A stretch of 64,000 nt of DNA from Brachyspira alvinipulli ATCC 51933. GTDB taxonomy: Bacteria > Spirochaetota > Brachyspiria > Brachyspirales > Brachyspiraceae. Positions 53,464 to 59,546 of the stretch are shown here, piece after piece (position 1 is the first letter of the stretch; the number at the start of each line of letters is the position of its first letter). The stretch spans positions 186,001 through 250,000 of the forward strand of contig NZ_KI912403.1 of assembly GCF_000518245.1 (NCBI RefSeq), given 5' to 3'. The notes under the pieces are model-generated. The model made no database searches. It was given only the letters and a program-made list of their open reading frames with translations, and was not told the origin of the DNA. Position numbers and translations under genes: made by a program.

Positions 53464-54558
53464 ATGAAAAAAGTTATTTGTTTATTGATGCTATTAAATT
53501 CTTTTGTATTTGCTATAGATGATATTCTAGATAAAGATAATATGCATAATCTAATAGAAGGTGTAACATCAACAAGATTTGGTACAGACAGAGTTAGCAC
53601 AATATACGACTTTGCTCCGCTTATGAATCATAATACCCCTTTCAAATTGGGAGTTGCATTATTAGATTTAACACAGATAGTAAATAATGATACAATAGAT
53701 GCAAATGGAAAAAGAAAATTAGCCTTCTTACCAAAAGGTTTTATTGGTTTAAGTTATGGAATGTTTTCTATTGGTTATCAATTTAATTTATATAATGACC
53801 TTACAGACAAAAATTCACCTATAGCACATAGCCATTCATTTTCATTTGGTTTTGTTAACGAAAGATATAGATTATCTCTTCCTGTATCAGTATCTATATC
53901 AGATCCAAATTATTATGGAGGAAAATTATCTGTAAGTACTACTCCTAAATTTTCTTTTATGTTTAGGAGCGGTTTATTAGATGAATTTACAATAGCTCTT
54001 CATTACGGAATTCAGCTTTCTACTGTTACTAACCCAGTAGGAAATACTAATATAGCTCCTATGGTTATAGGAGGTTCTCTATATGGAGAAATAATGCTTA
54101 CAAGATTTGATAATTATCCTGTTCAAATTAGTATACCAGCTAAATTAGCTTTCTATTATGGTATAGGAGCAAGATGGGCTACTATAGATGCTGGATATGC
54201 TGAGGATGCTTTAATAAACTATTTATACAGTGATGAGGCACAAACAGAAAGAGCTACGGATAGTATGAGATTCTATGTTTTACTTCCAGCTAAATTTGAA
54301 ATGAAATTAGGAGCTATATACACTTATTTAATGCCTAGATTAATGTTTGAAGGAAATATTTATAAAACAGATGGAAATTATAATCTGCATTATGGTATGG
54401 AAGGAGAAATGCGTGTTACTTTAGTTGAAAATTTAACATTTGGTTTTACAGCATATGCAGAAGGTCAAAGAATCACTAGAAAAGCTGCTGATTTTGAAAT
54501 AAATAGTGCAAATGCATTTGATGGCGGATTGGATATTTGGGGAATATGGAGATATTAA
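53464..54558 (+). CDS. Outer-membrane-type beta-barrel protein (364 aa)
   Basis: A signal peptide ends near FVFA-IDDI. The rest alternates aromatic and polar residues in beta-strand style (GFIGLSYGMFSIGYQFN, FSFGFVNERYRLSLPV, LTFGFTAYAEGQ), ending in DIWGIWRY with a terminal aromatic residue, as in barrel proteins. No family recognised; not similar to the Vsp surface proteins I know. GGAG precedes ATG. A small conserved open frame follows after ten bases. Confidence 0.8.
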   Translation: MKKVICLLMLLNSFVFAIDDILDKDNMHNLIEGVTSTRFGTDRVSTIYDFAPLMNHNTPFKLGVALLDLTQIVNNDTIDANGKRKLAFLPKGFIGLSYGMFSIGYQFNLYNDLTDKNSPIAHSHSFSFGFVNERYRLSLPVSVSISDPNYYGGKLSVSTTPKFSFMFRSGLLDEFTIALHYGIQLSTVTNPVGNTNIAPMVIGGSLYGEIMLTRFDNYPVQISIPAKLAFYYGIGARWATIDAGYAEDALINYLYSDEAQTERATDSMRFYVLLPAKFEMKLGAIYTYLMPRLMFEGNIYKTDGNYNLHYGMEGEMRVTLVENLTFGFTAYAEGQRITRKAADFEINSANAFDGGLDIWGIWRY

Positions 54559-54568
54559 AATAACTGCA

Positions 54569-54649
54569 ATGATAAAAAATTTCTCTAAGTCAAAAATAAT
54601 AGCAGCCATTGCTTATTTATCAAAAAAATATACTAGACATATATTATAA
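54569..54649 (+). CDS. Conserved 26-residue small protein, copy 1
   Basis: ATG 54569 opens a 26-codon frame ending at 54649, ten bases after the barrel gene stop. Its last 11 residues (YLSKKYTRHIL) match exactly those encoded upstream of the second YjiM-like gene at 55944-56024. The frames align without gaps through the stop, and several codon differences are synonymous (Ile2, Phe5, Leu17, Ser18, Tyr21, Thr22, Leu26), which points to selection on the peptide. There is no Shine-Dalgarno; a weak TTGGAT/TATTAA promoter (54529-54558) would start the RNA close to the ATG. Function unknown; a leader peptide or accessory subunit are the options. Confidence 0.72.
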   Translation: MIKNFSKSKIIAAIAYLSKKYTRHIL

Positions 54650-54655
54650 TATTTA

Positions 54656-54672
54656 TTCTATAGGATATAGAA
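54656..54672 (+). promoter_or_regulatory. Dyad between small ORF and YjiM-like gene, copy 1
   Basis: TTCTATA-GGA-TATAGAA is a perfect 7-base inverted repeat. The identical sequence plus following TCCATTTCTAT stands before the second copy. In RNA, GGAT...ATCC pairing is an alternative stem. Confidence 0.7.
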
Positions 54673-54715
54673 TCCATTTCTATTAAAAAATAAATATATT
54701 TTATGGAGTAATATA

Positions 54716-55867
54716 ATGTCTAATAACAATTTACCAGAAATTTTTGAAACATTTACAGATGCACGTAAAAAAGGCTTTCTTACTATGAAAGAAGAAAAAG
54801 ATAAAGGCAGAAAAGTAGTAGGAAGTTTTTGTACTTATACACCAAAAGAAGTAATATATGCTGCTGATGCTATAAGCGTATCATTATGTTCTACAAATGA
54901 AGAAACTATACCAGAAGCTGAAAAATATCTGCCTAAAAACCTATGTCCGTTAATAAAATCAAGCTATGGTTTTGCGATAACTGATAGATGCCCTTATATG
55001 TACTTTTCTGACTTAATAATTGGCGAAACTACATGCGATGGTAAGAAAAAAATGTACGAACTTTTAGGAGAAATAAAAAATACTTATGTTATGCAATTGC
55101 CTCATTTCCAAAATGAATATTCATTAGCACTTTGGAAAAATGAAATTGCTGAACTTATAAAAAGATTAGAAAAAGAATTTAATATTGAAATCACTGAAGA
55201 AAAATTAAAAGAATCTATTAAACTATTTAATGAAGAAAGAAAAGTAATAAAAGAATTATATGAACTAGGAAAACTTAATCCTTCTCCTATAAAAGGCAGT
55301 GAAATGCATGAAGCTTTGCATTCATCAAATTATAAATTCGACAGATTGGCATATATAAATGAAATAAAAGAGTTAATAAAAAATTTAAAAGAAATGCATT
55401 CACAAAATAATCAAAAAGAATATAATCAAAATACCCCAAGAATATTAATAACAGGATGCCCTACTGGAGGACTTGTTGATAAAGTTATAAAGCAAATAGA
55501 AGAAGTTGGGGCCAGTGTTGTTTGCTTTGAAAGCTGTTTAGGAAGCAAAAATTTTGAAATACTTGTTGATGAAAATAAAGATCCTATAGAAGCAATTGCA
55601 GAAAAATATTTAAATATACCTTGTTCTGTTATGAGTCCTAATGATGATAGAATGGATATAATAAAGAAATATATAGAAGAATATAATGTTGATGGTGTAG
55701 TAGAGGTTACGCTTACTTCATGCCATACTTATGCTATAGAAACTGAAAAAGTTAGACGTACAGTTGAAAGTATGGGAAAGTCATATCTAAATATAGAAAC
55801 AAATTATTCTAACAGCGATGCCCCTCAGCTTAGAACAAGATTGGAAGCATTTGTTGAAATGTTGTAA
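54716..55867 (+). CDS. YjiM-like 2-hydroxyacyl-CoA dehydratase-family (double-cubane type) protein, copy 1
   Basis: The 383-residue protein matches E. coli YjiM and the double-cubane cluster protein family from memory. Conserved Cys are at 39, 58, 77, 92 and 107, with NLCPLIKSSYGFAITDRCPY and GETTCDGKKKMYE; later ones lie in ILITGCPTGG and TSCHTYAIETEK. Such proteins carry iron-sulfur clusters and, with an ATP-driven activator, perform low-potential reductions; the substrate is unknown. The activator (58473) and a cysteine desulfurase (57307) follow. GGAG lies 7 bases before ATG, and the paralogue at 56094 is nearly the same length. Confidence 0.88.
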   Translation: MSNNNLPEIFETFTDARKKGFLTMKEEKDKGRKVVGSFCTYTPKEVIYAADAISVSLCSTNEETIPEAEKYLPKNLCPLIKSSYGFAITDRCPYMYFSDLIIGETTCDGKKKMYELLGEIKNTYVMQLPHFQNEYSLALWKNEIAELIKRLEKEFNIEITEEKLKESIKLFNEERKVIKELYELGKLNPSPIKGSEMHEALHSSNYKFDRLAYINEIKELIKNLKEMHSQNNQKEYNQNTPRILITGCPTGGLVDKVIKQIEEVGASVVCFESCLGSKNFEILVDENKDPIEAIAEKYLNIPCSVMSPNDDRMDIIKKYIEEYNVDGVVEVTLTSCHTYAIETEKVRRTVESMGKSYLNIETNYSNSDAPQLRTRLEAFVEML

Positions 55868-55907
55868 TAATTCATATTTATATTTTTTAGAAAAATAAAT
55901 TATTTAA

Positions 55908-55936
55908 TTGACAAACATAAATATTTTTATTATAAT
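55908..55936 (+). promoter_or_regulatory. Consensus promoter of the second small ORF and YjiM-like gene
   Basis: TTGACA (55908-55913), a 17-base spacer and TATAAT (55931-55936), both perfect. The predicted transcription start (about 55942-55944) coincides with the ATG at 55944 of the small ORF. Confidence 0.9.
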
Positions 55937-55943
55937 TTTATCT

Positions 55944-56024
55944 ATGATTACTAATTTTGCTGTAAACAAATTGATAGTAGCCATTTCTTATCTATCCAAA
56001 AAATACACAAGACATATACTTTAA
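55944..56024 (+). CDS. Conserved 26-residue small protein, copy 2 (predicted leaderless)
   Basis: A 26-codon frame with the same C-terminal YLSKKYTRHIL as copy 1 at 54569 and a similar start (MITNF against MIKNF). Codons for Leu17, Ser18, Tyr21, Thr22 and Leu26 differ but keep the amino acid. The perfect promoter just upstream predicts an RNA beginning at or within two bases of the ATG, so translation would be leaderless. The amphipathic centre (residues 9-16 hydrophobic, then basic) could sit on a membrane or a protein. Not in any family I know. Confidence 0.75.
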   Translation: MITNFAVNKLIVAISYLSKKYTRHIL

Positions 56025-56032
56025 GTATTCAA

Positions 56033-56049
56033 TTCTATAGGATATAGAA
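56033..56049 (+). promoter_or_regulatory. Dyad between small ORF and YjiM-like gene, copy 2
   Basis: The same TTCTATA-GGA-TATAGAA dyad as at 54656-54672, nine bases after the small-ORF stop and 45 bases before the next ATG. The flanking sequence to that ATG is also nearly identical between copies. Confidence 0.7.
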
Positions 56050-57242: not shown

Positions 57243-57262
57243 ATAAAATATTAACTTAATCA

Positions 57263-57295
57263 GCAAGGTGCTTTTTTAAAGTACCTTGCTTTTAT
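57263..57295 (+). terminator. Terminator-like hairpin between YjiM copy 2 and cysteine desulfurase
   Basis: AGCAAGGTGCTTT (57263-57275) and AAAGTACCTTGCT (57279-57291) form a 13-pair stem with one G-U and a 3-base loop, followed by TTTTATT. It ends 12 bases before the next ATG, leaving no space for a promoter. Confidence 0.9.
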
Positions 57296-57306
57296 TAGGA
57301 CACATA

Positions 57307-58455
57307 ATGATATACTTTGATAATGCAGCAACAACATTAAAAAAACCTGAAACTGTTGCCAAAGCAGTTTTTAACGCTATAAATAATTTTGCAAATGCTT
57401 CAAGAGGTTCTTATGAATCATCTTTAAATAGCGAAAGAGTTATACTAAGCACAAGAGAAAGAATTGTAAAACTCTTTAATGGCTACAGTCCTAATTATGT
57501 TGCATTCACAAGCAATTCAACAGAAGCATTGAATACTGCAATTAAAGGCTTAATAGAAAATTATAAAGATTCTCATATTATAACAACCTCTTTAGAACAT
57601 AATAGTGTATTAAGACCTCTTTATGAAATGCAGGAACTTGGCACGGAATTAACTATAATAAAAGCAAATATTAAAGGAGAAATAAATTACTCAGATATAG
57701 AAAAAAGTATAAAAACAAACACTAAAGCTATTGTATGTACGCATGCATCTAATGTTATAGGAGATGTTTTGGATATAGATTTTATAGGCAATTTATGCTC
57801 AAAACATAATATATTATTTATTCTTGATGCTTCTCAAAGTGCAGGTTCTATAAATATAGATATGAAAAAAAATAATATCGATATAGTATGTTTTACCGGA
57901 CATAAAGGTTTAATGGGACCTCAAGGTACTGGCGGATTATGTATAAAAAAATGGATAAGTATAAAACCATTAAAAAGCGGAGGCTCCGGAATAAAAACTT
58001 ATTCTAAAACTCAGCCTGAAAATATGCCCACAAGACTTGAAGCTGGTACTTTAAATAGTCATTCTATAGCAGGACTTAATGCTGCATTAGAATTTATAGA
58101 AAATGAAGGATTAGAAAAAATTAGAAAGCATGAAAAAAAATTAGCAGATTATTTTTATAATGAAATAAAAAATATGGATAATATTAAATTTTATGGTAAT
58201 TATAATACTGATAATAGAACATCAATAGTGGCATTGAATATAGGTGAAATAGATTCTGCAAAAATATCTGATATACTTGCAAATGAATATGATATAGCTA
58301 CTAGGTCAGGAGGACATTGTGCCCCTCTTATGCATGAATCATTAAATACTGTAAAACAGGGTATTGTAAGATTTAGTTTTTCTTATTTCAATACAGAAGA
58401 AGAAATAGAAAAAGGTATTAAAGCTATAAAAGAAATTAGTAAAAAATTTTCATAA
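57307..58455 (+). CDS. Class V aminotransferase, cysteine desulfurase-like
   Basis: PLP enzyme of 382 residues similar to the am_tr_V_EF2568 type of cysteine desulfurases. It has YFDNAATTLKKP at the start, THASNVIGDVLD, LDASQSAG and the Schiff-base Lys in FTGHKGLMGPQGTGGL. The sulfur-carrying Cys is in RSGGHCAPLMHE. It would provide persulfide sulfur. AGGA lies 6 bases before ATG 57307; the in-frame TTG upstream lies inside the terminator stem. Next to an activator with DUF3343, it probably feeds sulfur to the cluster-bearing system; this is inference. Confidence 0.9.
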   Translation: MIYFDNAATTLKKPETVAKAVFNAINNFANASRGSYESSLNSERVILSTRERIVKLFNGYSPNYVAFTSNSTEALNTAIKGLIENYKDSHIITTSLEHNSVLRPLYEMQELGTELTIIKANIKGEINYSDIEKSIKTNTKAIVCTHASNVIGDVLDIDFIGNLCSKHNILFILDASQSAGSINIDMKKNNIDIVCFTGHKGLMGPQGTGGLCIKKWISIKPLKSGGSGIKTYSKTQPENMPTRLEAGTLNSHSIAGLNAALEFIENEGLEKIRKHEKKLADYFYNEIKNMDNIKFYGNYNTDNRTSIVALNIGEIDSAKISDILANEYDIATRSGGHCAPLMHESLNTVKQGIVRFSFSYFNTEEEIEKGIKAIKEISKKFS

Positions 58456-58472: not shown

Positions 58473-59546
58473 ATGTATTATATTGGTATAGATATAGGTT
58501 CAACTGCTTCAAAAGTTGCTGTTTATGATGATAATGTTAATGATTTAATTGATTTATTTATGATTCCTACAGGATGGTCTGGAATTGAAGCTGCTGCAAA
58601 GATACTTGAAATGTTAAAAGAAAAAAATATCAATAAAGAAAATTCATATTTCGTAGGCACAGGATATGGAAGAGTATCTATAGAATATGCTGATAAAACA
58701 ATAACAGAAATAACATGTCATGCCAAAGGAGCCAATTTTTTATTTAATAATTTAGACGGCACTTTAATTGATATAGGCGGACAGGATACTAAAATAATAA
58801 ATATAAAAAATGGAAAAGTTGATAATTTTATTATGAATGATAAATGTTCTGCTGGTACAGGCAGATTTATAGAATTAATGTCAAATTCTTTAGGATGTTC
58901 TATACCTACACTTCTTGAAGAAGCTTCAAAATGCAAAGAAACTGATGTAATTATAAGCTCAATGTGTACAGTATTTGCAGAAACAGAAGTTATAAGTCTT
59001 AAATCCAGCGGAAAGCAAAAAAGTGAAATTGCTTATGCTATAGTAAATTCTGTTGCAAACAAGGTTGCATCACTTTGCGGAAAGTTTAAAGATGATACTT
59101 ACTTCCTTACAGGAGGATTATGCGTATTTGATTATTTAGTTAAAAACTTAGAAAAAACTCTAGGAGGTAAAGTTATTACTGACAGCAGAGGACAATATGC
59201 TGGAGCAATAGGAGCTGCTATCATAGGATTTGAAAAAAATTCTGATAATAAAGTAATAAAGAAAAATATATCTGCAAATGAAAATACTGAACCAAAAGAA
59301 AACAATGAAAAAAGATTAGTTATAACTTTTAATACTACAACTGATGTTATGAGAGCAGAAAAAGTTTTTAAAGATGTTATGTTAACAACAAACCAAATGC
59401 TTGGAAAAATAATATCAATACCTAGTGAAATATCTGCAGGATGCGGTATGTCTTGGGAAAGCGAAATTAATTTTAAAGATAATCTTATTAATATATTAAA
59501 AGAAAATGATATAGAATATGATAATTTTTATGAAATATCCAAATAA
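58473..59546 (+). CDS. YjiL-like ATPase activator fused to DUF3343
   Basis: Residues 1-255 or so are a BadF/HgdC-type activator with the nucleotide site GIDIGSTASK (5-14), DIGGQDTK (100-107), and the two Cys that bind the bridging 4Fe4S cluster in CSAGTG (Cys125) and SSMC (Cys165). ATP hydrolysis drives one electron into the dehydratase-type partner. Residues 275-357 resemble DUF3343, a putative Se/S-carrier domain with VITFNTTTDVMRAEK and ISAGCGMSW (Cys324). E. coli YjiL lacks that part. It starts 17 bases after the desulfurase gene. Confidence 0.86.
   Translation: MYYIGIDIGSTASKVAVYDDNVNDLIDLFMIPTGWSGIEAAAKILEMLKEKNINKENSYFVGTGYGRVSIEYADKTITEITCHAKGANFLFNNLDGTLIDIGGQDTKIINIKNGKVDNFIMNDKCSAGTGRFIELMSNSLGCSIPTLLEEASKCKETDVIISSMCTVFAETEVISLKSSGKQKSEIAYAIVNSVANKVASLCGKFKDDTYFLTGGLCVFDYLVKNLEKTLGGKVITDSRGQYAGAIGAAIIGFEKNSDNKVIKKNISANENTEPKENNEKRLVITFNTTTDVMRAEKVFKDVMLTTNQMLGKIISIPSEISAGCGMSWESEINFKDNLINILKENDIEYDNFYEISK

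Follow-up and report, generated by a model that had tools for sequence, protein, structure and literature searches.

A conserved short coding frame, a candidate leader peptide, precedes double-cubane reductase genes in Brachyspira

Cis-acting leader peptides of the ErmCL, TnaC and SpeFL type are encoded by a short conserved ORF that lies before one structural gene, with structured RNA between the two. Leaderless small upstream ORFs, whose transcription starts at the ATG and which carry a run of cysteine codons, occur in actinobacteria. The CD1871A family CXXC protein (NF040920), which is also very small, is encoded in Clostridia close to double-cubane and selenium genes. To our knowledge, little has been established about the natural substrates or the regulation of most double-cubane enzymes, which carry out difficult reductions.

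The window analysed here, a stretch of 64,000 nucleotides from Brachyspira alvinipulli ATCC 51933, contains two short frames that each precede a YjiM-like gene matching the NF040772 model "double-cubane-cluster-containing anaerobic reductase" (cut-off 350 bits; Table 1). Both had been noticed in a sequence-only reading as frames that align without gaps from ATG to TAA, and our coordinates and translations agree with it. The 11 C-terminal residues are indeed the same in both frames despite five codon differences (TTA/CTA, TCA/TCC, TAT/TAC, ACT/ACA and TTA/CTT, the last at two positions), and the distance to the ATG of the double-cubane gene, put at about 70 bases in that reading, is 66 nt for copy A and 69 nt for copy B. 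We call the corresponding leaders type A and type B.

Like ErmCL, TnaC and SpeFL, the Brachyspira leader is conserved at the amino-acid level and, at type-A loci, is associated with predicted sequestration of a start codon. Unlike them, it has no known ligand or arrest motif, ends at varying positions, shows sequestration at only some of its loci, and is followed by a weak hairpin. Type-B loci resemble the actinobacterial leaderless ORFs in that the promoter puts the predicted transcription start at the ATG of the small upstream ORF, but there is no cysteine-codon run, the phylum is different, and the peptide itself is conserved. The Brachyspira peptide contains no Cys and has no counterpart among the Pfam and NCBIfam models, and NF040920 finds no match over its cut-off in any Brachyspira genome; identity with the CD1871A family was rejected on the lack of a family match and of Cys. 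The E. coli yjiM-yjiL-ytiA genes correspond to the Brachyspira locus in enzyme, activase and Se/S carrier-like protein, but E. coli yjiM has no such leader ORF, and in B. alvinipulli activase and carrier domain form a single fused protein.

Table 1. Coordinates of features at the two double-cubane loci, numbered from the first base of the window
Feature	Position	Strand	Basis or remark
Porin-like outer-membrane protein gene, upstream of leader A	53464..54558	+	no Pfam or NCBIfam match
Leader ORF type A, 26 aa	54569..54649	+	MIKNFSKSKIIAAIAYLSKKYTRHIL, ATG to TAA
AGACAT, codons R23-H24, complementary to ATGTCT at enzyme start codon (54716-54721)	54635..54640	+	folds, duplex test, opening energies
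Hairpin or inverted repeat TTCTATA-GGA-TATAGAA, copy A	54656..54672	+	conserved
GGAG, ribosome-binding site of double-cubane gene A	54705..54708	+	sequence
Double-cubane-cluster reductase gene, copy A, 383 aa	54716..55867	+	NF040772, 530 bits
Promoter TTGACA-17-TATAAT, 12 of 12	55908..55936	+	ends 7 nt before leader B ATG
Leader ORF type B, 26 aa	55944..56024	+	MITNFAVNKLIVAISYLSKKYTRHIL, ATG to TAA
Hairpin or inverted repeat TTCTATA-GGA-TATAGAA, copy B	56033..56049	+	conserved
Double-cubane-cluster reductase gene, copy B, 382 aa	56094..57242	+	NF040772, 535 bits
Cysteine desulfurase family / SclA-like gene	57307..58455	+	TIGR01977
Acyl-CoA dehydratase activase (YjiL-like) with C-terminal Se/S carrier-like domain (PF11823), fused	58473..59546	+	

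The nearest solved chains to double-cubane reductase copy A are 6eno and 7yyl, and nine Cys columns are invariant in 25 double-cubane proteins. Downstream of copy B, a strong hairpin resembling an intrinsic terminator (57262-57290) lies before the cysteine desulfurase gene and suggests separate or attenuated transcription of the desulfurase and activase pair. In genome G001 (L133:8649-9684), the activase and the Se/S carrier-like domain are on separate, slightly overlapping ORFs.

A search of 26 Brachyspira genomes detected 17 homologous frames in 13 species, and the 18 NF040772 double-cubane genes of the genus reside in the same 13 of the 26 species. The sequence-only reading had proposed looking in other Brachyspira genomes for the frame and the gene that follows it; it recurs there before 17 of the 18 YjiM-like genes, with ATG, frame and a stop all kept, so that every double-cubane gene copy except one has its own leader. 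None of the 13 genomes that lack a double-cubane gene has an intact frame. The one double-cubane gene without an intact leader is copy A of genome G018, whose leader (locus L034) has lost its start codon and suffered deletions, while its hairpin is retained and stronger; copy B of the same genome is intact. A broken frame within a conserved nucleotide region had been named beforehand as the pattern that would speak against coding, and it is seen, with the RNA element kept, in this one case, where the genome also carries an intact copy. At this degraded leader (L034:1300-1465), the hairpin is extended into a long stem with ATTTTTAT behind it and appears terminator-like.

Weak matches in G007, G009 and G015 were rejected, each being a frame with no gene of its own that appears to run antisense to a different coding sequence. 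In GTDB contigs seven loci were found, all in Brachyspira, and the viral contigs and plasmids searched contained no relatives of the frame. Among 393 Spirochaetota genomes there were only weak, chance-level matches; inspection of the sequence upstream of 17 other spirochaete double-cubane genes revealed no such ORF, nor was one present upstream of the double-cubane gene in Acetoanaerobium or E. coli. A selenium trait (selD) was considered as the cause of the distribution over 13 of 26 species and rejected, since selD is present in 25 of the 26.

The 17 homologous frames share a pattern of about 24 essential residues, M-I-x-x-F-x-x-x-K-x-I-x4-Y-L-x-x-K-x-T-x-H, with invariant residues distributed along the full length of the peptide. 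Beyond His24 the sequence is variable and the stop position shifts, giving lengths of 25 to 29 aa. The codon-substitution test that the sequence-only reading had suggested was decisive, as were its frame and shuffle controls. A codon model of codons 1-24 in the 17 sequences, on a fixed tree of the enzyme genes, gave a dN/dS (omega) of 0.083 and lnL -439.8, versus a best lnL of -483.2 at omega 1 (2ΔlnL about 87). When the model was re-run as a control on codons 2-24, omega was 0.089 and 2ΔlnL 81.5 in the true frame, whereas the other two frames had omega above 1 and 2ΔlnL of at most 17.5, and eight column shuffles reached at most 11.9. None of 1500 column permutations of amino-acid similarity reached the observed BLOSUM score. 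By these measures the frames are almost certainly genuine coding sequences under selection and presumably translated cistrons.

The strength of this statement derives from type A and from the comparison of A with B. In type A alone, omega is 0.04 (2ΔlnL 68.8), with free variation at synonymous sites but not in the amino acids; in type B alone, where changes are few, omega is 0.475 (2ΔlnL 5.2). Type-B leaders have unusually few synonymous differences relative to their genes, ranking in the bottom 1% of gene windows of equal length, although the test is confounded where it includes the swapped loci described below, whose leaders possibly share more recent ancestry. This low synonymous change points to nucleotide-level constraint that overlaps the peptide at type-B loci. 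The earlier proposal of selection on a peptide and not on a conserved RNA is therefore upheld in its first half; its second half conflicts with the type-B synonymous depression, with a repeat present at every locus and with start-codon pairing at type-A loci.

This repeat, TTCTATA-NNN-TATAGAA or a close variant, is 17 nt long and is found directly past the frame at all 18 loci, starting about 5-9 nt after the leader stop; at G007A it overlaps the frame end. In an alignment of 13 rows, 98.9% of cells pair in the 7-bp hairpin, and in two rows, G001A and G018A, the outermost pair has changed on both sides (U-A to G-C and C-G). This pattern fits an RNA hairpin, though the repeat might also be a DNA palindrome. 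As an RNA structure it has a short stem rich in A+T (-1.6 to -3.9 kcal/mol), and the leader region has no Rfam match. A regulon-wide or genome-wide operator was rejected, there being 0-2 other sites per genome. We also rejected a classical amino-acid attenuator: unlike in such attenuators, the leader frames contain no run of one amino acid's codons that could be regulatory, and no canonical terminator or terminator-like site lies between ORF and gene at the loci in the window.

The two leader types differ in what precedes them. Type-A leaders begin about 5-30 nt past a porin-like gene, with no clear promoter; in B. alvinipulli, 10 nt separate the stop codon of that gene from the leader start, and in G001 the porin-like gene is apparently reduced to its last codons. 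At all nine type-B loci, the promoter ends 7-10 nt before the ATG. The sequence from the -10 element to the ATG is variable and conservation starts at the ATG, as would be expected for a leaderless start, and the type-B transcript is predicted to begin at the ATG. A 5' hairpin in type B was no more stable than shuffled sequences. The leaderless layout is credible in the B. alvinipulli genome because this spacing of promoter and ATG occurs in it at 28 distinct sites, versus one in the control, and about half of these start long ORFs. Perfect sigma-70 promoters 5-10 nt before an ATG recur across genome G000 (L097-L126). About ten of them start paralogous genes that share an N-terminal N-x-LNDYF-x-RY motif, which suggests a family of leaderless genes.

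Leader type does not always follow enzyme type. In the enzyme tree, G010, G012, G013 and G016 group with type-A enzymes (support 96-100), but they carry type-B leaders (support 99); the changeover lies close to the enzyme start codon. This arrangement indicates that leader and promoter move as a cassette.

At type-A loci, leader codons 22-24 and the bases that follow are predicted to pair with the ribosome-binding site (RBS) and start codon of the enzyme gene. Opening the RBS is predicted to cost 9.7-14.6 kcal/mol with the leader free versus 3.5-6.2 kcal/mol with it occupied at seven of eight type-A loci, so that occupancy lowers the cost by 3.6-11 kcal/mol; the exception is G001A, where pairing is weak. 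This drop exceeds that of shuffled ORFs at five type-A loci. In a duplex test, native leader/start pairs were better than swapped pairs within type A (p about 0.02), but not when all loci were pooled (p 0.51). At most type-B loci, RBS pairing was either missing or did not exceed chance, and universal RBS sequestration was therefore rejected.

These features lead us to consider the frames as a translated, genus-specific leader cistron that would control expression of the double-cubane gene in cis, a reading to which we give an even chance. Translation of the leader would set expression of the adjacent gene. In type A, a ribosome passing or pausing at the leader end could open the RBS and start codon of the enzyme, which are otherwise paired. 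In type B, the leader would be the leaderless first cistron of the mRNA, with weak RBS pairing. The step common to both types is likely to be the encounter of a ribosome at the leader end with the conserved hairpin. Because the amino-acid sequence itself is conserved, we infer that the nascent peptide might influence ribosome pausing, perhaps in answer to a redox or sulfur/selenium signal. The variable residues after His24 and the variable stop argue against a stall at the stop codon. We favour cis over trans action because a conserved element lies between leader and gene, because the leader is retained copy by copy, and because cassettes have been swapped; the preference is slight, because the peptide matches the enzyme in constraint and stays conserved at loci that lack predicted RBS pairing.

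The main competitor, which we rate somewhat below even, is a small protein acting in trans: an accessory factor or chaperone, 26 residues long, that would be translated from the operon's first cistron and would assist the double-cubane reductase or the delivery of its cluster. The peptide in type A is under amino-acid constraint like that on the enzyme (pN/pS 0.094/0.42 for the leader versus 0.098/0.46), its invariant residues span its whole length, it persists where RBS pairing is absent, and the sole lost leader belongs to G018, whose other copy is intact, all as would be expected of a protein. A trans-acting product is harder to reconcile with a conserved cis element behind the leader at every locus and with the retention of a separate leader by nearly every gene copy. 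Also, type-B leaders serve type-A enzymes, which argues against paralogue-specific pairing, no relative was found in the other organisms examined that have the same enzyme, and the helical amphipathic moment of the peptide is not significant, being no higher than that of shuffled peptides. A more specific form, in which the peptide is a dedicated partner or chaperone of double-cubane [8Fe-9S] reductases, confined to Brachyspira, and would be the first small accessory protein for enzymes of this class, is correspondingly more tentative. Thus, where the sequence-only reading spoke of a small protein, the conserved peptide stands, whereas a free-standing product does not follow from it, and a cis-acting leader peptide fits at least equally well.

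Simple translational coupling, in which translation as such would have the effect and the sequence conservation would come from pairing of the RNA with the enzyme start region, could draw on the predicted start-codon sequestration at type-A loci, but we consider it improbable: in type A the synonymous sites are free to vary and the amino acids are not, and the peptide is common to A and B while the pairing is not. That the region is a conserved operator or untranslated RNA in which a frame happens to be open is most improbable, given the codon-model test with its frame controls, the low omega of type A alone, the rarity of the repeat elsewhere and the missing Rfam match, even though the repeat is universal and type-B leaders show so little synonymous change.

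With the cis-acting leader peptide as the favoured reading, a leader conserved in sequence across the genus and placed before nearly every gene copy would give access to the signal that the cell reads before it makes the enzyme, or, if the product acts in trans, may reveal a missing protein partner. The type-B frame would add a leaderless small coding gene in spirochaetes, and at 26 aa such a gene is short enough for ordinary gene calling to miss. Within one genome, a single leader occurs in two architectures.
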